From Fibrobacter sp. (GTDB lineage Bacteria; Fibrobacterota; Fibrobacteria; Fibrobacterales; Fibrobacteraceae), in contig JAFPWY010000003.1 in the NCBI GenBank assembly GCA_017412605.1, forward strand, positions 62,001-126,000: a stretch of 64,000 nt of DNA, in the 5' to 3' direction. Made by a program: the position numbers and the translations under genes. The first letter of the stretch is position 1. Every line of letters starts with the position of its first letter. Positions 4,601 through 64,000 of this stretch are shown here, one piece after another. Below the pieces are notes generated by a model that was not told the origin of the DNA, did not search any database, and was given only the letters and a program-made list of their open reading frames with translations.

Positions 4601-5797
4601 CTATTTCAGGGATTGCAGTCCGCGCTTGAATCTTTCGCAAGCCTGTTGCAGTGTGCTGTCGCTGGCCGCATAGGAGAAACGGACACAGTTGTCGTCACCG
4701 AATGCTGCACCCGGCACGATGGCTAGCCCCTCGGATTCGAGAAGATAGGAGCAGAGTTCGACGGAACCGCCGATAACCTTGCCGCTCGGCGTGGACTTGC
4801 CGTAAAACGCGCTCACGGGGGCGAACAGGTAGAACGCTCCTTCGGGGGCTCGCACGGGCTCGGGCACGATTTCGCTGACCTGGGAGACCATGTAGTCCCT
4901 GCGGCGCTTGAAGGCAGCGAGCATCTCGTTCACGTGGCTCTTGTCCATCTGCAGTGCGCCTAGCGCTGCGTACTGTGCAACGTTGCTCGGATGATGTGTC
5001 GCCTGTCCCTGGATTTTTCCGATAATCCTCGCGATGGGGGCGGGTGCGGCATCGTAGCCGATGCGCCAGCCGGTCATGCAGTGCGATTTGGAAAATCCGT
5101 TCACGACGATGGTGCGTTCCGGCATGCCGGGGAATGCTGCGGCGGAGCAAAATTCCGTATTGTAGACAAAGTATTCGTACACCTCGTCCGAGATGCAGTA
5201 GATGTCTTTTTCAACGATGACTTCGGCAAGCCCAGCCAGTTCCTGCTTTGTGTATGTGGCCCCGGTCGGATTGCACGGGTTGTTCAGGATGATGGCCTTG
5301 GTCTTGTCGGTGCAGGCGTTGCGCAGGGCCTCGGGGCTGAGCTTGAACCCGCTTTCAATCGTCGTGTTCACGATGACGGGGGTGCCGCCGAGCCACTTGA
5401 CAAGTTCGGGATAGGTGACCCAGTAGGGGGCGGGAATGATGATTTCGTCGCCTGGGTTGATGAGTGCGGCGAGCGCATTGAATATGGCGTGCTTTGCGCC
5501 GCTGGTCATGATAATCTGCGATGCGTCGTAGTCGAGGCCGTTTTCTGTGCGGAGCTTGTCTGCCACGGCTTCGCGGACTTCGAGGATGCCCACGGGAGCG
5601 GTGTAGCGCGTCTTGCCGTCGTTTATGGCCTTGCATGCCGCAGCACGGATGGGTTCCGGTGTCGGGAAGTCGGGCTCTCCGGATCCGAGACTCACGACAT
5701 CCTTGCCGTCGGCAATCATCTGCTTGGCCATCGTGTCGATGGCGACGGTGAGGGAGGCGGCGATGTTCTGGGTTCGAGTAGAAATGGGTTTAGTCAT
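4601..5797 (-). CDS. aspC: Aspartate/prephenate aminotransferase (class I, PLP-dependent)
   Basis: 398 residues, normal for the Ib subgroup. Seen: SLGSGEPDFPTPEPIR, KTRYTAPVGILEVREAVA, the PYWVTYPE substrate/PLP loop, NNPCNPTGATYT, and the PLP-lysine segment GFSKSHCMTGWRIGY. The enzyme transfers amino groups between aspartate or glutamate and 2-oxo acids in the cytoplasm; Ib members may also use prephenate. The start overlaps the 3' end of the RND gene by 8 nt, pointing to one transcript. Exact substrate cannot be read from sequence, so the symbol is used in the broad sense. Confidence 0.88.
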   Translation of the reverse strand: MTKPISTRTQNIAASLTVAIDTMAKQMIADGKDVVSLGSGEPDFPTPEPIRAAACKAINDGKTRYTAPVGILEVREAVADKLRTENGLDYDASQIIMTSGAKHAIFNALAALINPGDEIIIPAPYWVTYPELVKWLGGTPVIVNTTIESGFKLSPEALRNACTDKTKAIILNNPCNPTGATYTKQELAGLAEVIVEKDIYCISDEVYEYFVYNTEFCSAAAFPGMPERTIVVNGFSKSHCMTGWRIGYDAAPAPIARIIGKIQGQATHHPSNVAQYAALGALQMDKSHVNEMLAAFKRRRDYMVSQVSEIVPEPVRAPEGAFYLFAPVSAFYGKSTPSGKVIGGSVELCSYLLESEGLAIVPGAAFGDDNCVRFSYAASDSTLQQACERFKRGLQSLK

Positions 5798-9803: not shown

Positions 9804-10403
9804 CTAGAAAACGGGATAGCCGTCCTTGAGGCTCTCGTCGTAGTGGGCACGTTCTCCGCCAATGAATTTGGGACGGGTGCGTGCCGCAATCAAAATCGCC
9901 TTGCCGATATGCGTCTGCTGCATGTGAACAGGTACCGCGACTTCTTTCAGGTGCATGCCGATAAGCGTCCCACCGATGTCTAATCCGGCGTCTGCCTTGA
10001 TATGCTCGATGGCGACAGGTTGTTCAAAAGCACTATAGCAGGCGGTGGCAAAAGAACCTCCCGCCTTGGGTTGCGGCACCACGTTCACGATTTCGACGTT
10101 CGGTACGGCCTTGTGCTCGACGATGATGGCGCGGTTCAGGTGCTCGCAGCATTGCGCCGCGATGTAGATGCCGAGCGGCTTGAATACGGACTGCAAACCT
10201 TCGAAAATCGCTTTGCCGACTTCGGGAACGGAATGGCTCCCGATGTCGTTCCCGAGTGTGGAACTCGTGCTGCAACCGATAACCACGATGTTTCCGGCGG
10301 AAAGTCGTGCTTTTTCTACAAGTTCCTTAGCGGCGTTCATCGCGTCGTTACGAATCTGTTCGACAATGTTCTTGTCGTCTATTTCGTATGTAATGCCTGC
10401 CAA
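9804..10403 (-). CDS. ywlG: UPF0340/DUF436 family protein, YwlG-like
   Basis: 199 residues. Recognisable blocks are VVIGCSTSSTLGNDIGSHS, IYIAAQCCEHLNRAIIVE, VNVVPQPKAGGSFATACY and DIGGTLIGMHLKEVAVPV, all characteristic of UPF0340 (YwlG of Bacillus). Function is not established. No ATG lies near the conserved start; TTG at 10403 fits the family N-terminus. A tandem CTACTGT-type heptad array runs up to that codon, so the leader of this gene is largely repeat DNA. The 3' end meets the convergent barrel gene with a one-base gap. Confidence 0.85.
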   Translation of the reverse strand: MAGITYEIDDKNIVEQIRNDAMNAAKELVEKARLSAGNIVVIGCSTSSTLGNDIGSHSVPEVGKAIFEGLQSVFKPLGIYIAAQCCEHLNRAIIVEHKAVPNVEIVNVVPQPKAGGSFATACYSAFEQPVAIEHIKADAGLDIGGTLIGMHLKEVAVPVHMQQTHIGKAILIAARTRPKFIGGERAHYDESLKDGYPVF

Positions 10404-10453
10404 CTTTCTACTGCCTACCGTCTACTGTCTACTGTCTACTGCGGCGAAGCCGC
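10404..10453. repeat. Heptad repeat array plus GC hairpin
   Basis: Four to five 7-nt units of consensus CTACTGT (about 10407-10440), then GCGGCGAAGCCGC (10441-10453), a 5-bp stem with a GAA loop. It fills the whole gap between guaA and ywlG. Confidence 0.8.
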
Positions 10454-14966: not shown

Positions 14967-15968
14967 ATGCTCCTTCCTATAGTTGCTGTTGTTCTTGGCC
15001 TTGCCGTCCTGGTCTGGAGCGCGGATAAATTTGTGGATGGCGCTGTGGGCGTGGCTCGTTTCTTTGGAATGAGCACGCTCCTTATCGGGATGGTTATCGT
15101 CGGCTTCGGGACTTCTGCTCCGGAAATGGTCGTGTCGGCCTTGTCGGCGATGGAAAATGCGCCTGAACTCGCCCTAGGTAACGCTTACGGCAGCAACATT
15201 GCAAATATCGCTCTCATTCTCGGCGTCACGGCGCTGATTTCCCCGGTCATCGTGAAACGCGAAGCGCTCAAACGCGACGTCCCGATCCTGATTGGGGTGA
15301 CTGCGGTTGCTATCATCCAGGCTGCGGATGGTTCCATAAGCCGCTTGGACGGCGTCGTGCTGCTCCTGTTTTTTGCCGGAATCATGGGTTTCAACATTTG
15401 GAGCGAAATTCGTGCGAAAAAGAAGGCTTCTGCACTGCAGAAGGAAGCCGAAGACGGTGATGAGTCCGGGAAAGCTTCTCTGCCGAAATCCGTTGCCTGG
15501 CTTTTGCTCGGCCTCACTTTGCTCGTGCTGAGCTCGAGGTGCCTTGTCTGGGGAGCCGTGTCCATCGCGCAGGCGCTGGGCGTGAGCGACCTCCTGATTG
15601 GCCTTACCATCGTGGCCGTGGGAACATCCCTGCCGGAACTGGCGAGCTCCATAGCCGCTGCCCGCAAGGGCGAAAACGATTTGGCTTTCGGCAATATTGT
15701 CGGGTCTAACTTGTTCAATACGCTTACGGTTGTGGGCATCGCGTCGACGATTTCGCCGATGCGTACGGTCAACCCGCTGGTGTTCAGCCGCGACTTGCCT
15801 GTGGTTGCCGTGTTGACAGTGTTGCTGCTATTGTTCGGGCTGCCGGTGCGCAAGAAACGTTTGGATGCGAACGGACTCCGGATTGGGCGAATCAATCGCC
15901 TCGAAGGATCGGCCTTCCTCGCCATTTACGTAGGATACATTGGGTTCCTGATAGCGCAAGCGATGTAG
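14967..15968 (+). CDS. Calcium/sodium antiporter, CaCA family (YrbG-like)
   Basis: 333 residues with the two inverted alpha repeats of Na+/Ca2+ exchangers: GFGTSAPEMVVSALSA then GNAYGSNIANIALILG, and VGTSLPELASSIAAA then GNIVGSNLFNTLTVVG. About ten membrane segments are separated by one charged cytoplasmic loop (residues about 150-170). It exchanges Na+ (possibly K+-dependent) for Ca2+ across the inner membrane. Directly follows the Ala/Pro-rich OMP gene. Confidence 0.93.
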   Translation: MLLPIVAVVLGLAVLVWSADKFVDGAVGVARFFGMSTLLIGMVIVGFGTSAPEMVVSALSAMENAPELALGNAYGSNIANIALILGVTALISPVIVKREALKRDVPILIGVTAVAIIQAADGSISRLDGVVLLLFFAGIMGFNIWSEIRAKKKASALQKEAEDGDESGKASLPKSVAWLLLGLTLLVLSSRCLVWGAVSIAQALGVSDLLIGLTIVAVGTSLPELASSIAAARKGENDLAFGNIVGSNLFNTLTVVGIASTISPMRTVNPLVFSRDLPVVAVLTVLLLLFGLPVRKKRLDANGLRIGRINRLEGSAFLAIYVGYIGFLIAQAM

Positions 15969-16049
15969 AGCGATGAGCAATGAGCTATGAGCAGTGAGCT
16001 ATGAGGCTAGAACCTCATACCTCATAGCTCAGAGGCGCAACGCGCCGGC
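15969..16049. repeat. Palindromic heptad-repeat element
   Basis: Left arm: about five 7-nt units of the type ATGAGCA (15971-16008). Right arm: inverted units CCTCATA/GCTCAGA (16013-16033), then the GC hairpin GGCGCAACGCGCC (16034-16046). It fills the gap between two convergent genes. Confidence 0.8.
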
Positions 16050-20734: not shown

Positions 20735-20834
20735 GGCTCCAGGAATAGCAACGAGCAATGAGCAGTGAGCAATGAGCGGTGAGTCTAGATACCTCAAAGG
20801 CGCTTGCGCCGACCTCATAGCTCATCCCTCATCG
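20735..20834. repeat. Palindromic heptad-repeat element
   Basis: Left arm: five 7-nt units of type GAGCAAT (20753-20787). Centre: GGCGCTTGCGCC (about 20809-20820). Right arm: CTCATAG-type units of opposite orientation to 20834. Lies in the gap between the YfcE gene and the TPR lipoprotein gene. Confidence 0.82.
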
Positions 20835-23800
20835 CTACTTTACCATAATCATCGGGCTCGTTTCGCTCAGCAGGTAGTTCCACTCGGCGCGGATTTTCTC
20901 GTATTCGGCGGGGTCCGCGTACAGGGCGAATGTCGTCCAGCGGATGGAAGTGCCTGCGCTTGCCCCGCTGGTGGATTCTTTACCCTTTTCGAAGCTCACG
21001 TAGTCCGGCGTTTTCGGGTACGCCTTGGGCGGCGTAACCGTCACGGTATGGCCGCTCGGGGCGGTGACCTTGAGCGTGTAGCTGAACTGCGTCTCGTGCG
21101 GCATGCGGATGGGGTGGTGGCGCTTGGAAACCTTCGGAATCTTGAACAGGCTCCTTTCCCACACGTTCGGGAAGCGGCCCTTGAGCTCGGAACCGCCCTG
21201 GCCGAAGTATCCCTTCGAGGCGTAGGTGTTCACGATGATCAGCGGCTTGTTGAACTCGTTCAGGTTCTCGATTCTTACGTTGCCGATGCTCACGTCGGGG
21301 ACTCCGCTTGCGAGGAAGTCCTCGAGCAGGGTTTCCTGTTCCTTGACATCGTGGCTAAAGAACTTGTTGCGGATTGCCGACGCGAACTTGCCCTGCAGCG
21401 TGACGGAATCGCGGAATTCGCAGGCTCCGTCGGTGCCGATGTGGAGGCGGTGCTCTATGGCAATCTGGTGTTCCTGGTTGTCTTCGAGGATAGGCGTCGT
21501 CACGACCTTGCTGTTGTCGTCGTCGATGATGAGCGCGACCTTGCCTTCCATGTCGAGCGGCACGGGTCGGTCGTTGCCAGTCTTGTCGGTTGCATCGATC
21601 CAGCGTTCGCTAATCTTGTCTTGCTTGGGAATGTAGAGAATCATGTGGTTGAACTGCTGGATGGTCGGCAGCTGCTCGAACCCTTCTTCGGTGAGGTGGA
21701 TGGCCACGAGATGGCTCTTGACCCCGATGGCCTCGAGCATTTCCTTGAGCAACAGGGCCATGTCCTTGCAGTCGCCACGACGCTCCTTGAGCGTCACTTC
21801 GGCGGTCTGCGGGATAAGGCTGTGACCGCCGAAGCGGACATCGCGATAGCGGATGTCGTGGCGCACGAAGTTGACAATCGCCTTCACGGCCTCGTCGCCG
21901 ATACGGCTGCCCCGCACCTCGAAAGCCTTCTCGCGCACGCTCACGGCCTGCTTGAACTGGTGCTTGATGAGGTTCTGGTAGTCTTCGCCCACGTTCTTCC
22001 ATTCCTGCTTGCCGGTGAGCATGAGGCCTGCGCCAAAGTCGCGGTACACCGGCATGTACATTTCCTTGCGCACGATGACCGGGTTCTCGATGCTCCATTC
22101 CACGCCGCCCTTGAACGTCTTCTTCTCGAGCGGGCCGTATTCTTCGGTCACGAAGCGGTTCGGGTCGGCATAGATGCGGAAAATGCTCTTGCCTACGGGC
22201 ACGTCGCTGCTGCTCACGTAGTCGGTGTAGGGAATCATGCCCTTGTTCTCGATGTTGGTGCGGCTGAACTGCACGTAGATAAAGTCGCCCGGTTCGAGTT
22301 CCTGCAGCGGGAAGTGCGCCGTCTGGCTCTCGTTTCCGCCGCCGATTTCTGTGGCGTAGGTGATGTAGGCCCCGTTCAGGCCGACTTTCTGCTTCAGGTT
22401 CCAGTTGCTGTCGTAGACTTCGAGCGCGTTGATGTAGATGCGGTCAAAACCGGGCAGGAAGTCGAAGGTGAACTCGCGGTAGATGGCCGTGCCGCGCAGG
22501 TCGAGAATTTCCATGAGCATCTCGTCGGTGCGGACCCAGTTGGAACCCTTCTCGGCCTTGAGCGCTTCCTTGTGGTAATGCACGACGGCGGGGAAGTCTC
22601 CCTCGGTCCCGGCCTTCTTCGCGGAGGGAGAGAGCAGACCCTTGATGCTTGCCGTGCGCTCCTCGACCGGGGTGATGGGCTTTTGCAGCGTGCGGTTGTC
22701 GGCCTTGCCGAGGAACGCCTTGGTGGCGCTCAGGAAGCTTTTGGCGTCTTCGTTGTCGGGCTTGAGCGAAAGCGCCTTGGTGAGCGACTTTTCGGCTTCG
22801 CGGTAGTTCCTGCTATAGAAGAGGATCTTGCCCTGGGTGGTCCATGTCTTGTAGTTGTTGCGGTCCTTGGCGATGGTCTCTTCGCTGATGGCGCGGGCTT
22901 CCTCGTAGCGGCCGAGGAACACGAGCGCGTCCATGAGGGTGGAACCGAGGTCCACGCTCATGCCGAAGCGTCCGCGCACGCCGTAGAGCACGTCGACGGC
23001 TTCGGCGTACTGGTCAAGGCCCATGTAGGTCTTGGCGAGGTAGACGCCCAGGCGGCTGCTGGGCTGCGTGTCGTACAGGCGCTGCACCACGATGAGCGAC
23101 TGGTTGCGCTGTCCGAGTCCCCAGAGCGCGTCGCTCAGGTTGATGACGTATTCCGGATTGTTCGGCGTGTAGCGGAGCGCCCCTTCGGCGCATTCGCGGG
23201 CGTGCCCGTAGTCGAACAGCGCCTCGTACATTTCGCCCAGAATGGAGAGCAGCTTGCCGTTCTTGCGCACGAGATCCATCTGGCTCGTGAAATAGCTGAT
23301 GCCCGGCCCGTAAAGTTCCTTGAGCTGGTACACGAAACCGCAGTTGATGAGGTACAGCGGTTCTTCGGGGTCCATCTTGTTCGCGCGTTCAAAATAGCTG
23401 AGCGCGACGAGCGGCTGGTTTTCTACGAGGCGTAACAGGCCGACCTGGCTCATGATGGCAGCGTTGAACTTCGCCTGTTTCTTGTCGTTGGCGAGGCTCG
23501 GCTTTGCACCGACTTTGAGGCCTTCGACGGCGTTGTCCATGATTTTTGCGTACTTTTTCTTGTTGATGCCCTGCGTCCAGCTGACCACGAGGATACCGCG
23601 GCCGTCGTCGTAGAAATAGCGGCCCTTGTAGTAGAAGTCGAACTTGTTCACTACGTGCGTGAGCGTGAATTCCTGGGCGTAGCGGTCACCGACCTTGACT
23701 CGGCGGACATCCATGCTCGGTTCATTCGGGTCGACGCCGAGGCGGGTGAGGAGTACCTTGAACATGTCGGATTGGCTGACCTCGTCGCTCGGGACCATGG

Positions 23801-27728: not shown

Positions 27729-27848
27729 GTTGTAGAGACTAGAGGCTAGGGGCTAGAGGCTAGAGTAGATAATCGCGGCGAAGCCGTGATATTTTTCCCT
27801 AACCCCTAGATTCTAGCCCCTAACCCCTAATCACTAATTCTATATTTA
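27729..27848. repeat. Palindromic heptad-repeat element with GC hairpin
   Basis: Left arm: five units of type TAGAGGC (27733-27767). Centre: CGGCGAAGCCG (27776-27786), then GTGATATTTTTCC. Right arm: six units with CTA in fixed phase (type CCCCTAA) from about 27797. The centre and right arm closely resemble 54511-54563. Confidence 0.85.
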
Positions 27849-30003: not shown

Positions 30004-30633
30004 ATGCGCAAAAATCTCGATATGACGCTTTACTTTATCACCGACAGCACTTGCGTTCCCGAAGAACGCTTCTTGCCCGTGGTGGAGGCTGCTTGCAAAG
30101 GCGGCGCGACGATTATCCAGCTGCGCGAAAAGGACAAGTCTACACGGGAGTACATGCGGCTTGCTACGGCGACGCACGAAATTACCGCCCGTTATGGAAT
30201 CCCGCTGATTATCGACGACCGCGTGGACGTGGCGCTTGCCATCGGTGCGGAAGGCGTACATGTGGGGCAGAGCGACATGCCGGCGCATCTGGCTCGCAAG
30301 CTCATGGGTGATGACAAGATCGTGGGTGTTACGGCCAAGACGGTGCCGCAGGCGCTCGAAGCTTACGAGCAGGGTGCGGATTACTTGGGCTGCGGTGCAA
30401 TTTACCCCACGACGACTCACGTAAACACGGTCATTACCCCGGTAGAAACGCTCAAGGACGTTGTGAAGGCCGTGCCCATTCCCGTAAACGCCATCGGCGG
30501 GCTCAACAAGGACAACATCTTTGTGCTGAAGGGCTCCGGCATCGCGGGAATCTGCGTAGTATCTGCCATCATGAAGGTGGCCGACCCCGAGACTGCTACC
30601 CGCGAACTCAAGCAAGCGTTCTTGGAGCTGTGA
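30004..30633 (+). CDS. thiE: Thiamine-phosphate synthase ThiE
   Basis: 209 residues. Seen: LYFITDSTCVPEE, ATIIQLREKDKSTREY (pyrophosphate/thiazole site), PLIIDDRVDVALAIGAEGVH, VGQSDMPA, DYLGCGAIYPTTTH and VNAIGGLNKDNI. It couples HMP-pyrophosphate with the thiazole phosphate. The ATG at 30004 is 9 nt after the thiH stop; a TTG two codons earlier is an alternative. Likely the end of a thiG-thiH-thiE transcript. Confidence 0.95.
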   Translation: MRKNLDMTLYFITDSTCVPEERFLPVVEAACKGGATIIQLREKDKSTREYMRLATATHEITARYGIPLIIDDRVDVALAIGAEGVHVGQSDMPAHLARKLMGDDKIVGVTAKTVPQALEAYEQGADYLGCGAIYPTTTHVNTVITPVETLKDVVKAVPIPVNAIGGLNKDNIFVLKGSGIAGICVVSAIMKVADPETATRELKQAFLEL

Positions 30634-30665
30634 GCTATGAGCAATGAGGCTCGAGGCCCGAGATT
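30634..30665. repeat. Short heptad-repeat segment
   Basis: GAGCTAT/GAGCAAT/GAGGCTC-type units and GAGGCCCGAG between convergent thiE and the M23 peptidase gene. Confidence 0.5.
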
Positions 30666-32043: not shown

Positions 32044-32183
32044 ATGTTTAGTAGGAAGTTAGAAGTTGGAAGTAGGAAGTGGTTTAGGTATGAGGTCGGT
32101 CGCCGGGGGCTCCCTTTGAGCCATGAGCAGTGAGCAATATATAGCATAAATTCAGCATTACTACGTCCCTCATTGCTCATCGC
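32044..32183. repeat. Mosaic heptad-repeat element
   Basis: Four units of type GTAGGAA (32049-32077), then GAGGTCGGTCGCC, then GAGCCAT/GAGCAGT/GAGCAAT units (32118-32138). Finally inverted CTCATTG/CTCATCG/CTCACTG units (32169-32189) run into the last codons of the DUF4416 gene. Confidence 0.78.
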
Positions 32184-32750
32184 TCACTGCTGATTTCTCA
32201 GCCTATACGGCTTTCCCGTGCTCATCTGGTAGGCGAGGCGGGCGCGGACTTGTTCCAAATATTGGATATACTTTTCGCTCTGGTAATCGCGGTAGGTCCA
32301 ATCGAAGGCGTGGAAATGCCCGTCCTGGAAGTACAGCGTGGGCTCCACGAAAATTCCGCGTTGCATGTACACGCGCTGGCGCTGGTCCTTGGTGGTGGCG
32401 AGGAAAAACTGCCCGAGCGTCATGTAGCCCGGGTCGAGGTTCACAGGCCGCAACCCCGGAGTGCCGTTCTTTTCGGCGATTTCGAGCTCGATATCGTTTG
32501 TCCAGAGCTTGATGTCTACGATGGTTTCGCGTTCCACCAGGTTCTCGTAGCTAAAGAACGCACGGACGGGTGCTGTGCCGATTTCGTCGACATAGTAGTT
32601 GGTGAACGTGAAGGGGAAGGGGTCGAGGTTCAGGTCCTCGGGGCCGAACTTTTCGCGCAAAGTCTCCCGTACCGATTCGACCGCCTGCGAATCTTTTGCG
32701 AGGATGCCCACGATAATCTTCACCTTGGCCGGTGTCCTGAGTTCGCCCAT
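32184..32750 (-). CDS. DUF4416 family protein
   Basis: 188 residues. Start PAKVKIIVGILAKDSQAV, middle PFTFTNYYVDEIG and DIKLWTNDIELEIA, then LDPGYMTLGQFFLATTKD and FDWTYRDYQSEKYI, the pattern of DUF4416 proteins found in Nitrospirae, FCB and delta-proteobacteria. Cytoplasmic, function unknown. The last codons lie in heptad-repeat DNA. The start is 26 bp from the divergent glutaminyl cyclase gene, with a TAAATT box 7 nt upstream. Confidence 0.85.
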   Translation of the reverse strand: MGELRTPAKVKIIVGILAKDSQAVESVRETLREKFGPEDLNLDPFPFTFTNYYVDEIGTAPVRAFFSYENLVERETIVDIKLWTNDIELEIAEKNGTPGLRPVNLDPGYMTLGQFFLATTKDQRQRVYMQRGIFVEPTLYFQDGHFHAFDWTYRDYQSEKYIQYLEQVRARLAYQMSTGKPYRLRNQQ

Positions 32751-32776: not shown

Positions 32777-33580
32777 ATGAGCATTTTCAACCGAAGTTTT
32801 CTTTTGGTGATAAGATCCCTGAGCCTGCCGAAGGGATCCTCTCTCGTATCTCGTCTCCTGCCTCTTGTCTTATTACTCTCGTCTCTCGTATTCGCCGAAA
32901 CCCCGCGCGTTGTGCCGACCATTGTGGATTCCGTTTCGCACGAGACGTCCCATTTTACGCAAGGCCTTTTCTTTGATGGCTCCGATTTGATCGAAAGTAC
33001 GGGCCAGTATGGCGGCTCGGGACTTTACCGCCGCACGCTCGAAGGGAAAATCCTCGATTCCGCGCGCCTTGTCGAACGCTATTTCGGCGAGGGTTCCGTG
33101 GCCGTGGGGGAGGACATCTTCTACCTCACTTGGAAATCGAAAAAAGCGTTTATCTACAATCGCAAGCCGTTCAAGGCGAAGGGCGAGTTCCGCATCCCGA
33201 CAGAAGGATGGGGGCTTACGTATTGGCACGACGCCCTGCTCATGAGCAACGGCTCGGATGAACTTTTGAAAATCGCCCTGGGCGGCTTCTATGTCACCGG
33301 GACCATCAGCGTGACCGACGGGGACAAGCCTGTGCCCATGCTCAACGAACTGGAAGTGGTCGGGAACACCCTCTACGCCAACATCTGGCAGACTGCGCTA
33401 ATCGCCGTCATTGAACTCCCCAGCGGCAAGGTCGTCAAGTATCTGGATTTCTCCGCCAAGGCCAAGGACGTGAAAAAACGCTATCCCTCCGCCGACGTGC
33501 TGAACGGAATTGCCTACGACGGCAAGACCCTGTGGGTCACAGGGAAAAACTGGCCGCAGATTTACAAGATAAAGTTTTAG
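32777..33580 (+). CDS. Glutaminyl-peptide cyclotransferase (plant/bacterial type), secreted
   Basis: 267 residues. The mature part begins about residue 41 and has SHETSHFTQGLFFDGSDL, ESTGQYGGSGLYR, PTEGWGLTYWHDALLMSNGS and LNELEVVGNTLYANIW, diagnostic of PF05096, a five-bladed propeller that cyclises N-terminal Gln to pyroglutamate. The signal peptide is unusual. Codons 13-21 lie in an inverted repeat of the CTGAGCCTGCCGAAG type, and codons 22-38 lie in seven tandem 7-nt units (32841-32889), giving LVSRLLPLVLLLSSLVFA. No SD; a TAATTT box ends 6 nt upstream. Confidence 0.9.
   Translation: MSIFNRSFLLVIRSLSLPKGSSLVSRLLPLVLLLSSLVFAETPRVVPTIVDSVSHETSHFTQGLFFDGSDLIESTGQYGGSGLYRRTLEGKILDSARLVERYFGEGSVAVGEDIFYLTWKSKKAFIYNRKPFKAKGEFRIPTEGWGLTYWHDALLMSNGSDELLKIALGGFYVTGTISVTDGDKPVPMLNELEVVGNTLYANIWQTALIAVIELPSGKVVKYLDFSAKAKDVKKRYPSADVLNGIAYDGKTLWVTGKNWPQIYKIKF
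32814..32838. repeat. REP-like palindrome inside the signal-peptide coding region
   Basis: GATCCCT and AGGGATC arms flank GAGCCTGCCGA. Same family as the copy at 28658-28722. Confidence 0.65.
32841..32889. repeat. Seven heptad units inside the signal-peptide coding region
   Basis: Seven consecutive 7-nt units, consensus CTCTCGT (three exact copies, four variants), without any frame-breaking change. Confidence 0.8.
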
Positions 33581-36019: not shown

Positions 36020-36052
36020 AATTTTTTTTACCTCGGTAGACGAATTTTCGTA

Positions 36053-36080
36053 CTGTCTACTTCCTACTTTCAACTATCCT
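36053..36080. repeat. Short CTACTTC-type heptad array
   Basis: About four 7-nt units (CTACTTC/CTACTTT/CAACTAT) between the lipoprotein start and the proA stop, reaching into the last proA codon. Confidence 0.5.
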
Positions 36081-42190: not shown

Positions 42191-42233
42191 GTCTCTTGCC
42201 CGCCGTTTCTCGTTTGTCGTCTTCCGTTTTTTC

Positions 42234-44563: not shown

Positions 44564-44603
44564 TGAGCCCCCTCATAGCTCACTGCTCATAGCTCATCGC
44601 TAA
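44564..44603. repeat. CTCATAG heptad array
   Basis: Four to five 7-nt units (CTCATAG, CTCACTG, CTCATAG, CTCATCG) that end 8 nt before the next start codon. Confidence 0.8.
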
Positions 44604-44608
44604 CACTT

Positions 44609-45607: not shown

Positions 45608-46987
<1,380 letters not shown>

Positions 46988-47030
46988 TAGCGATGAGCTA
47001 TGAGCATTGAGCGATCAGTTATAAACTGAC
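46988..47030. repeat. ATGAGCT-type heptad segment
   Basis: GCGATGA/GCTATGA/GCATTGA/GCGATCA units after the gdhA stop, then an AGTTATAAACT palindrome. Confidence 0.6.
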
Positions 47031-47043
47031 TGCAAAATCTTGC

Positions 47044-47081
47044 AAAAAATCCCCCGGTTTCAAAAACCGGGGGATTTTTTT
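47044..47081 (+). terminator. gdhA terminator
   Basis: AATCCCCCGGTTT / AAACCGGGGGATT stem with a 3-nt loop and T8; also A-rich on the other side. Confidence 0.92.
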
Positions 47082-53825: not shown

Positions 53826-53927
53826 GATGCTAGTGGTTAGAGGCTAGAGATTAGGATCTAGTGAATAAGAATCACGCACTTCATGCGTCTAAATTTTCTC
53901 TAGCCCCTAGATTCTATTCTCTAGATT
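53826..53927. repeat. Palindromic heptad-repeat element
   Basis: Left arm: units of type TAGAGGC/TAGAGAT (about 53830-53865). Centre: CACGCACTTCATGCG. Right arm: about five units with CTA in phase (type TCTCTAG) from 53893. The right arm continues into the greB stop. Confidence 0.85.
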
Positions 53928-54395
53928 CTAATAAGTAACTTCCAAGATTTCGTACGTGATCGTTCCGCGGGGGGCTTGTACTTGCACGGTTTCGCCTTTC
54001 TTCTTGCCGAGCAGAGCTTCGCCGATGGGCGACTTCATGCTGATGCGTCCCTTGAGCGGGTCGATTTCTTTTTCACCGACGATGCTGTATGTCTTTTCGC
54101 GTTTTGTCTTGATGTCCACCATTTTGATTGTCGCACCGAACTTGATGGAACCGTCTTCGGGAGCGACGTTTTCGACAATCTTTGCTCCGTCCAGGATGCG
54201 GTCCAGTTCGCGCAGGCGGCGGTCAATCTCGCGGACGCGCATGCGTCCGTAGGTGTAGGCGGCGTTTTCGCTGCGGTCGCCTTCGGCGGCGGCGGCCTGC
54301 ACCTGGTTGATCATGGCGGGGCGTTCCTCGTACTTGAGGTGTTCCCATTCGGCCTTGAGTTTTTCGAAACCTTCTTTGGATATCAAATGCTTCAT
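53928..54395 (-). CDS. greB: Transcription elongation factor GreB-type
   Basis: 155 residues. The N-terminal coiled coil has AAAEGDRSENAAYTYGRMR then REIDRRLRELDRIL, closer to GreB (YGKKRLREIDRR) than GreA; the C-terminal FKBP-like domain ends PRGTITYEILEV. It rescues backtracked RNA polymerase by transcript cleavage. No SD; TATATT ends 9 nt before the ATG. Confidence 0.9.
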   Translation of the reverse strand: MKHLISKEGFEKLKAEWEHLKYEERPAMINQVQAAAAEGDRSENAAYTYGRMRVREIDRRLRELDRILDGAKIVENVAPEDGSIKFGATIKMVDIKTKREKTYSIVGEKEIDPLKGRISMKSPIGEALLGKKKGETVQVQAPRGTITYEILEVTY

Positions 54396-54404
54396 AGAGC
54401 GTAA

Positions 54405-54410
54405 AATATA
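54405..54410 (-). promoter_or_regulatory. -10-like box, start-proximal (greB)
   Basis: TATATT ends 9 nt before the greB ATG. Confidence 0.35.
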
Positions 54411-54415
54411 TAAAA

Positions 54416-54659
54416 AGGGGCGAGGCTCGAGGCACGAACAGTGAGCGGTGAGTCTTTGAGAGACTAAAGGCTAGTGAAAAGAATCACGCACTTCGTGCGT
54501 TAATAACAGACGGCGAAGCCGTGATATTTCTCCCTAGATCCTAGATTCTAACCCCTAATCACTTCCTACTTCCCACTTTCCTCATACCTCACACCTCAAA
54601 GTGGCTTTAGCCCCGACCTCATAGCCTCTAGCCCCTAGATTCTAGCCTCTATATTTTTC
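54416..54659. repeat. Largest mosaic heptad-repeat element
   Basis: About 245 bp. Left part: GAGGCTC/GAGCGGT-type units. Two GC hairpins follow, ACGCACTTCGTGCGT (54486-54500) and ACGGCGAAGCCGT (54510-54522). Then ten consecutive 7-nt units (54532-54601) change from CCCTAGA through CACTTCC to CTCACAC without loss of period, and five GCCTCTA-type units (54617-54651) reach the promoter of the next gene. Confidence 0.88.
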
Positions 54660-54665
54660 TATATT
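54660..54665 (+). promoter_or_regulatory. -10-like box, start-proximal (DUF2062-DUF1015)
   Basis: TATATT ends 9 nt before the ATG at 54675, at the very end of the repeat element. Confidence 0.4.
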
Positions 54666-54674
54666 TGGCACGCA

Positions 54675-60229: not shown

Positions 60230-61417
60230 ATGAGTTCTAAGAAAGTGTCTTCGAAAAAATCCGCTGCGAAGAGCGCTCCGGCGAAGAAACCTGCCGCAAA
60301 GAAGCCCGCTGCTAAGCCGGCAGCCAAGTCGGCGGCCAAGGCTCCGGCCAAGAAAGCGGCTGCCAAGCCTGCGGCGAAGTCGGCCAAGCCGGCTCCGAAG
60401 GCTGCTGCAAAGAAGTCTGCTGCAAAACCGGCTGCCAAGCCTGTAGCAAAGCCCTCCAAGTCGGCCAAGCCGGCTCCGAAGGCTGCTGCAAAGAAGCCTG
60501 CCGCAAAGCCTGCTTCGAAACCGGCGAAGGCTCCTGCCAAATCCGCAAAGCCCGCCACAAAACCAGCGGCAAAGCCGCAGAAACCGGCTGCGAAGTCCAC
60601 TTCGAAGGCTCCTGCCAAACCGGCTCCGAAGGCCCCGGCCAAAAAGCCGGCCGCCAAGCCAGTGGCAAAACCGGCTGCAAAGCCCGCTAAGCCCGCACCG
60701 AAGCCTGCTGCAAAGCCTGCTGCCAAGGTCGCCAAGCCGGCTCCGAAGGCTGCAAATGCTCCCGCAGCCAAGAAGGCAAATGCCGTTGAACCGGAAGCCA
60801 AGGTTGTCAAGAAGGTCGCCGAAGTCGAGGCTCCTGCTGCTGTTGAACCGCAGCCTGTGGCCGAAGTCGCCGAAGAAACGAAGGGCAAGAAGTCCGGCAA
60901 GGAAAAGGTCGAAATCCCCTACGCTGTCCTGCTCGAAGGCGGCAAGAAACTGAGCAAGTCCATCTTCTTCTTCGAAATAGACGAGAACGAGGAACGTGCC
61001 AACAAGAAGAAGGTCTCTTCCGAAATGAAGAACCTCGACATGAAGCCGACCTCGGCCATCCGTCACAAGATTTCGCTTGCTGAAGAAACGCAGGAAGAGC
61101 TGACCGAGCGCCTGCTCAAGGAACTCGAAGAGCAGAATCTTGCGTTCACGCGTGAGGCGGCTACCCAGATTTGCACGCGCTGCAACAAGAACCTGGTTTC
61201 TCCCGAATTCTGGGTGGACAAGCATCTCGGCTACTGCGAGGAATGCGCCGCCATCCTGAAGCTCGGCCAGTCCAAGGAAGCCCGCAAGGTCGAATACCAG
61301 CTCGGCGCCATGGGCGGCGACTCCCTTGACGAGGCTGAGGACGATAGCGAGTTTGGCGAAGGACCGGACGCAGCCGATATCAAGGACGCCGAAGAAGAAT
61401 TCGCCGATTTCGAATAG
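60230..61417 (+). CDS. Histone H1-like Lys/Ala/Pro-repeat protein with DksA-type zinc finger
   Basis: 395 residues. Residues 1-190 are almost only Lys, Ala and Pro (units like KPAAK and KAPAK), resembling the tails of histone H1, AlgP and chlamydial Hc proteins; a nucleic-acid-binding tail is expected. Residues about 190-235 are acidic. Residues about 235-330 end in a helical stretch (EETQEELTERLLKELEEQN) and then C-x2-C-x17-C-x2-C (CTRC ... CEEC), the spacing of DksA/TraR fingers. An acidic tail closes the chain. The coding DNA at 60240-60770 is internally repetitive. Possibly a nucleoid or RNA-polymerase-binding regulator (inference). Follows cyclophilin by 2 nt. Confidence 0.8.
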   Translation: MSSKKVSSKKSAAKSAPAKKPAAKKPAAKPAAKSAAKAPAKKAAAKPAAKSAKPAPKAAAKKSAAKPAAKPVAKPSKSAKPAPKAAAKKPAAKPASKPAKAPAKSAKPATKPAAKPQKPAAKSTSKAPAKPAPKAPAKKPAAKPVAKPAAKPAKPAPKPAAKPAAKVAKPAPKAANAPAAKKANAVEPEAKVVKKVAEVEAPAAVEPQPVAEVAEETKGKKSGKEKVEIPYAVLLEGGKKLSKSIFFFEIDENEERANKKKVSSEMKNLDMKPTSAIRHKISLAEETQEELTERLLKELEEQNLAFTREAATQICTRCNKNLVSPEFWVDKHLGYCEECAAILKLGQSKEARKVEYQLGAMGGDSLDEAEDDSEFGEGPDAADIKDAEEEFADFE

Positions 61418-63919: not shown

Positions 63920-64000
63920 AAAAAGGTGTGAGGTCGGCGCGTTGCGCCTTTGAGGTCGCTGCGCTTTGAGCTATGAGATGTGAGGTCGCGACCTTCGGTC
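63920..64000. repeat. Heptad/GC-hairpin element running off the window
   Basis: GTGTGAGGTCGGCGC, GCGTTGCGCC, then TTTGAGGT/TTTGAGCTATGAGATGTGAG-type units and GGTCGCGACC. Same ingredients as the other intergenic elements. Confidence 0.65.

Follow-up and report, generated by a model that had tools for sequence, protein, structure and literature searches.

Heptad arms around GC hairpins: dispersed palindromic elements in the intergenic spacers of Fibrobacter

Many intergenic spacers of Fibrobacter hold elements in which a GC-hairpin core is flanked by arms of 7-nt units, the AG-rich strand of the arms being directed to the core from both sides. At least two dispersed core families occur, here called A and B. 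The elements were studied in a window of 64,000 nucleotides (the whole stretch of DNA analysed), in further sequence of the same genome and in other genomes. With slightly better than even confidence, they are read as non-autonomous, REP/MITE-like palindromic intergenic repeats specific to Fibrobacter. The presence of cores with arms at scattered loci calls for copying from one to another, and slippage or a similar process is needed to account for the way arrays differ between species; the favoured view is therefore that of mobile palindromes whose heptad arms are prone to slippage. The evidence suggests a mobile repeat, peculiar to this lineage, by which the ends of genes are remodelled. An earlier note, made from the sequence of the window, knew of no description of such arrays in Fibrobacter, and none was found in the open-access literature searched.

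The same note had listed twelve gaps with 7-nt-periodic arms, and direct reading, Tandem Repeats Finder and a lag-7 scan bore these out in 12/12. Arrays were called in the window at a minimum of 15 of 21 lag-7 matches and are collected in Table 1. The gap at 53826-53927 lies below this cut (lag-7 match of 0.46 across the gap), with arms that are plain by eye and a fold z of -2.8. Two arrays were absent from the earlier list, one at 32837-32870 within a predicted CDS and one at 42203-42231. Intergenic lag-7 autocorrelation in the window was 0.302 vs 0.259 ± 0.006 in shuffles preserving single-base composition only (z 7.4). A genome sample of 464 kb, comprising 400 kb of contig C9 and the window, was scanned at a cut of 16 of 21. 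It yielded 27 intergenic arrays at lag 7, 29 at lag 14 and 0-3 at other lags, the 21-nt harmonic excepted, and lag 7 is the sole non-codon period enriched between genes in these 464 kb. Autocorrelation had been proposed as a check, and it returns a genome-wide excess. Nor are the arrays confined to this assembly, as they are present in others; the sampled genomes are drafts, mostly metagenome assemblies and several of them incomplete, in which short-read assembly may shorten long arrays. The pattern CCTAGATTCTAACCCCTA, with up to 3 mismatches, has 146 matches in this genome vs 1 for the reversed control. The period had been called strict, which is nearly so: some junctions between unit families lie 8 nt apart (e.g., GAGTCTTTGAG). 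The drift through three motifs in a single phase was recovered at 54533-54601 (CCTAGAT, ACTTCCT and TCATACC families), and the GC palindromes were found where they had been described (core A in Table 1).

Table 1. Heptad arms and hairpin cores in the window, with the arrays reaching 15 of 21 lag-7 matches.
Feature	Coordinates	Strand	Arrays at the cut	Description
Left heptad arm, index element	54417..54476	+		From outside to inside AGGCTCG, TGAGCNN and TAGAGGC families; direct reading
Core A, index element	54477..54539	+		GC hairpins ACGCACTTCGTGCGT (54486-54500) and ACGGCGAAGCCGT (54510-54522) between conserved flanks
Right heptad arm, index element	54533..54601	-	54533-54601	Ten units, three families, one phase; lag-7 scan
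Core B-like hairpin, index element	54594..54620	+		CTCAAAGTGGCTTTAGCCCCGACCTC, imperfect stem; core B family with compensatory stem changes
Outer TAG-family arm, index element	54622..54651	-	54622-54651	Adjoins promoter of rightward gene
Second full element, downstream of greA	53830..53930	.		TAG arms flanking ACGCACTTCATGCGT (53874-53888)
Single arm, ACAGTAG	10401..10447	-	10401-10447	Beside GCGGCTTCGCCGC hairpin
TGAG-family palindrome	15963..16035	.	15963-16035	Between convergent genes; fold z -4.2
TGAG-family arms	20742..20839	.	20742-20786, 20809-20839	Flank core B hairpin GGCGCTTGCGCC
TAG-family arms	27729..27841	.	27729-27773, 27805-27841	Flank ATCGCGGCGAAGCCGTGAT; fold z -3.1; orthologous copy retained in G063
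Single TGAG/AGGCTCG arm	30618..30662	+	30618-30662	In phase with the gene's own GAGCTGTGA end
AGTAGGA arm, core B-like hairpin, CTCA arm	32048..32198	.	32048-32085, 32164-32198	TAGGGTT-type element in its place in G063
Single arm, AGTAGGA/ACAGTAG family	36050..36079	-	36050-36079	Lag-7 scan
CTCA arm	44570..44605	-	44570-44605	Unit count differs in G063 and G046; other family in G017
TGAGC arm	46985..47018	+	46985-47018	After stop codon, upstream of intrinsic terminator
TGAG-type element	63920..64000	.	63957-63987	Truncated by window end

The unit length and the inward direction of the arms are constant, while the unit sequence varies by gap and species. Read 5' to 3', the AG-rich strand leads away from the closest gene edge, be it a stop or a start, in 83 of the 98 intergenic arrays. 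Arrays begin at stop codons or a few nucleotides from them; the median distance from a stop codon is ~1 nt and that from a predicted start ~24 nt, as given by a simple gene caller whose start sites are rough. The stop codon often stands in heptad phase, with 2 or 3 positions matching in 20/37 cases vs 37/222 at other phases. Downstream of greA, the stop codon is itself the TAG of the last unit of the element. At core-A loci, TAG stops account for 72% beside arrays vs 33% elsewhere (p = 3e-6); in the sister and distant sets, this enrichment was not significant. The index element was read directly within its gap (54396-54674), and the family order of its left arm recurs in other core A copies. 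Around core A, TAG units are innermost, followed by TGAG or AGTAGGA units, with AGGCTCG outermost, and AGGCTCG and TGAGC units succeed each other in one 7-nt phase. A strong intrinsic terminator (17 bp stem, T-tract) is located at 47044-47080, immediately behind the TGAGC array.

Core A spans ~65 nt plus arms, contains two GC hairpins in the frame GTGAAAAGAATCAC...GTGATATTTCTCCCTAG, and has 42 matches in this genome. The long matches are 83-95% identical, and nearly every copy read carries TAG arms. Many copies are also present in four sister species. A search of 84,980 species' genomes returned core A in 76 stretches, all labelled Fibrobacter. The frame of core B is constant (CTCAAA...GACCTC), while its stem varies on both sides with compensatory changes. 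A stem of at least 4 bp at the base is formed in 30 of 44 sites (chance ~0.02 per site), with at least 10 different stem sequences, such as GGGGCT/AGCCCC, GGCAC/GTGCC, GCGACC/GGTCGC, GGCGC/GCGCC and GCACC/GGTGC. Other repeats are found in the same surroundings. The dispersed hairpin repeat GAGATTGCTTC(A/G)GGGCTNCGCCC(T/C)TCGCAATGACA is repeatedly joined to TAG arms (right flanks of L111-L118; L129; L268), and its TGTCATTGCGA end may recall the CGTC-tagged REP class. A dispersed multi-hairpin module (ACTTAGTGCTTTAGCACTTATGTGGGCATGGCCCCTTTTGGGGGAG) stands in several copies between heptad units and core A (left flanks of L102, L106, L121 and L125). A repeat of ~150 bp ending in GCGCTCGCCTTACGCATTTGTCC lies within an AGTAGGA array that resumes on both sides (G046:C18, about 5100-5250, L137), with a relative in L300.

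This genome and its relatives G010, G012, G015, G017 and G021 are rich in the TAG family, which is near absent in others; these carry other units such as GTGTGAG, ATTCGGA, TAGAACT, TAGGTTT and AGACGAA. A further 20 Fibrobacter species, sampled at 20 kb each, gave 26 intergenic arrays at lag 7, 13 at lag 14 and 16 at lag 21, with 6 or fewer at other lags. The density varies, several species having no array in their 20 kb. In seven genomes of other Fibrobacterota families, each represented by little sequence, no lag-7 excess was seen (6 arrays at lag 7, up to 9 elsewhere).

Alignment of orthologous gaps, which the earlier note had suggested as a way to find empty sites, revealed presence/absence, family replacement and one clean empty/filled site. 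Between flanking genes of 80-98% identity, elements are gained, lost or swapped for another heptad family. An array was present on at least one side in 36 of 122 gap comparisons with sister species, which share history and are not independent; these 36 comprise 10 with the same family, 2 with a similar one, 4 with a different one and 20 cases of presence/absence. Downstream of greA, the gap has arms of TAGAGGC in this genome and in G046, AGACGAA and AGTAGGA in G012, GATAATG in G017, ATTCGGA in G002, G015, G072 and G076, AGTTCAT in G074, AATTACG in G023 and AGTGTGA in G048 and G058; G051, G061 and G065 have only a short spacer. The groES-groEL gap, identified from the protein sequences, holds core A here and in G046 and G067, and an AGACGAG element in G012, G017 and G063. 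The G063 counterpart of the 30618..30662 arm is down to GCTCTAC, and G046 carries a 126-nt near-perfect array of another family at the ortholog of 46985..47018. Wholesale replacement of a gap could also be due to allelic exchange between strains.

The clean insertion is that of G046 at C9:223457. The empty site ATTATAGTAACTATATTT is present in G000 and G063, G017 and G067 have an empty spacer related to it, and G046 is filled as ATTATAGTAA[TTAAGTAGG...CAACGAA]TAACTATATTT. The insertion is consistent with a TAA duplication. The right-arm unit TAACTAT is identical to the flanking TAACTAT, and the arm could thus have been made on the spot. A search for empty sites of core A found replacements only, with no clean insertions, and no general target duplication was seen with this single clean case. 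Set against the terminal inverted repeats and target-site duplication of MITEs, the arms are inverted but ragged, and one site has the possible TAA duplication. In addition, the CTCA array and the whole 69-nt gap at C9:228360-228428 (L020) are nearly identical in four species, in which the adjacent coding sequence differs by 10-14% or more. This reflects either local conservation or recent transfer, and the near-unchanged array argues against constant turnover everywhere.

The preferred explanation can be phrased as a series of steps. New copies would enter short spacers, chiefly right after the stop codon, probably because they are harmless only there. Slippage in 7-nt steps would afterwards make the arms grow, shrink and drift, with the period kept and the unit free to change. 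The hairpin may be acted on by an enzyme, host or mobile, that copies the cores, and the elements would be tolerated at gene ends with short ancestral spacers. The data can be explained without a host function. Three options had been offered in the earlier note, and two of them apply to different parts of the elements: mobile palindromes agree with the two dispersed cores and with gain, loss and replacement at orthologous gaps, and slippage agrees with the copy-number changes and the long near-perfect arrays of the arms in one species. Candidate enzymes were sought, and no mobilising enzyme was found. The RAYT-type Y1_Tnp (PF01797) is absent from this 99.5% complete genome and from the element-rich G012, G015 and G021 (77-82% complete), and RAYT/REP mobilisation was rejected on these grounds. 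Between the pairs of neighbouring core copies examined, no transposase of a usual type was present; host genes were found, one of them for an Rpn-like protein by eye. Every one of the 22 Fibrobacter genomes listed (G000-G021) has 3-25 copies of PDDEXK_2 (PF12784, Rpn-like), which was absent from the f3-family genomes searched. It was rejected as a partner, as the gene count does not follow the element number.

It is unlikely that local slippage alone has produced the elements, through 7-nt tandem duplication at each spacer and palindromes formed by template switching, with nothing mobile. Among long simple repeats, heptamers rank first in many bacteria, and slippage with a polymerase contact of ~7 nt has been proposed as their cause (Mrazek et al. 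2007, cited in PMC4679880). The number of units differs at gaps 44556 and 46988, the 113 arrays have 67 different consensus units, and arm and flank agree at the G046 site. However, near-identical cores with arms are present at dozens of loci, and a 60-nt two-hairpin core cannot repeatedly arise in this way; unit families are also shared between loci far beyond chance (43 near-identical pairs vs 9.6 ± 2.7). A function at the RNA level, in which array and hairpin in the 3' UTR terminate the transcript or shield it, possibly together with a protein that binds heptads, is considered quite unlikely. The start of arrays at stop codons fits the mRNA-end structures of the earlier note, as do the covarying stems, the sense orientation of 26 single arms in tandem gaps vs 16 antisense, and folding that beats shuffles in 4/5 elements tested, in one only marginally. 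Yet convergent gaps are not preferred (arrays in 16% of convergent, 14% of tandem and 12% of divergent gaps), and T-tract terminators are not in excess, with 15 found vs 13.9 ± 4.1 in shuffles of 44-56 kb and T-tracts that are weak. The array at 46988 has a separate terminator behind it, no Rfam family is matched by the elements, and families and presence vary freely among species. Intrinsic terminators as such were rejected for want of an excess over shuffles and of a preference for convergent gaps.

The remaining readings concern the heptad step itself. Seven nucleotides correspond to two thirds of a helical turn, and three units to two turns; a protein binding as an oligomer could accordingly cover the arms and thereby serve chromosome folding or recombination. 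Such DNA-level binding arrays are improbable: a period fixed while the unit changes and an inward polarity that is the same at start and stop edges would suit them, whereas 67 different units leave no common recognition sequence and presence is not conserved. An equally long shot is a Fibrobacter machinery with a built-in 7-nt step, which would use the sequence at gene ends (often the stop codon and 4 further nt) to write arms inwards at either side of a hairpin, thereby creating unit families and not merely copying them; the agreement of flank and arm in G046 and the stop codon in heptad phase are compatible with it. There is very little probability that the units serve as stop cassettes closing any reading frame by a TAG or TGA every 7 nt. 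Many units do contain TAG, TGA or TAA, and 7 is not divisible by 3, but AGGCTCG and other units have no stop, and the excess is weak (inward stops in 42 of 67 distinct units vs 32.8 ± 3.3 by chance, with a similar outward excess). The addition of templated heptads at broken ends by a telomerase-like or reverse-transcriptase activity is scarcely credible and largely refuted. On direct reading, the unit runs 5' to 3' to the junction on both strands, as in fused telomeres; however, the units are too variable for one template, and RVT_1 does not track the arrays, being absent from G005 (100% complete, with arrays) and not seen in the array-rich G012 and G015.

Among known systems, the cyanobacterial STRR named in the earlier note are an apt comparison as short tandem heptanucleotides, compared here by period, but they are not the nearest. 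The heptamer arrays of Xanthomonas (GGGAATC) and Nostoc (GGGGA(T/C)T) described by Rehm et al. 2015 (PMC4692102) share heterogeneous 7-nt units and a mostly intergenic position, often with two convergent arms forming an inverted repeat, and the Xanthomonas heptamers form such pairs near 3' ends. They lie ~28 nt from the upstream ORF end, with long arrays at differing genes in related species, which is counted as a likeness. Heterogeneous units in convergent intergenic pairs, as in that definition, are found in Fibrobacter. In contrast to Fibrobacter, the Xanthomonas/Nostoc arrays have one G-rich unit family with quadruplex potential, no multi-family elements, and no described GC-hairpin core; most Fibrobacter consensus units are without GGG and thus lack the G-tract of this class. 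In the Nostoc tRNA-Leu intron, degenerate heptanucleotide repeats occupy the P6b stem (PMC3488679, citing Costa et al. 2002). In that stem, the arms pair into a hairpin, vary in copy number and contain inserted non-heptad elements, as in Fibrobacter, but at a single site inside an intron and not as a dispersed gene-end element. REP, BIME and REPIN (PMC3733652, PMC3116915) are likewise small dispersed palindromes near ORF 3' ends, with stem subfamilies of paired changes and nested mosaics, and CGTC REPs also have no known transposase. As dispersed extragenic palindromes near 3' ends, the Fibrobacter elements belong to this class in its broad sense. The REP-type repeats are without heptad arms, however, and their GTAG class is tied to RAYT, a family absent from this genome; the frames of cores A and B differ from the GTAG tag at the hairpin foot. 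The TAACTGA direct repeats of marine Beggiatoaceae (PMC4679880) are also abundant intergenic heptamers, but consist of a single unit upstream of start codons and have no palindrome. The Fibrobacter elements thus combine features of the Xanthomonas, Nostoc and REP systems, yet without G-tract, GTAG tag or, in this genome, RAYT.

In this one genus, dozens of unit families share a single period and polarity and a hairpin centre, and often several of them occur in one element; in dozens of sequenced species, arrays come and go in orthologous gaps. The origin of the 7-nt step and of RAYT-less REP-like elements is testable through resequencing. In these inhabitants of gut and rumen, a repeat overlooked by annotation has a part in shaping both intergenic sequence and the choice of stop codons. 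The window also contains coding tandem repeats of the alanine/lysine/proline type at 60302-60753, with periods of 81 and 45 nt and no relation to the heptads.
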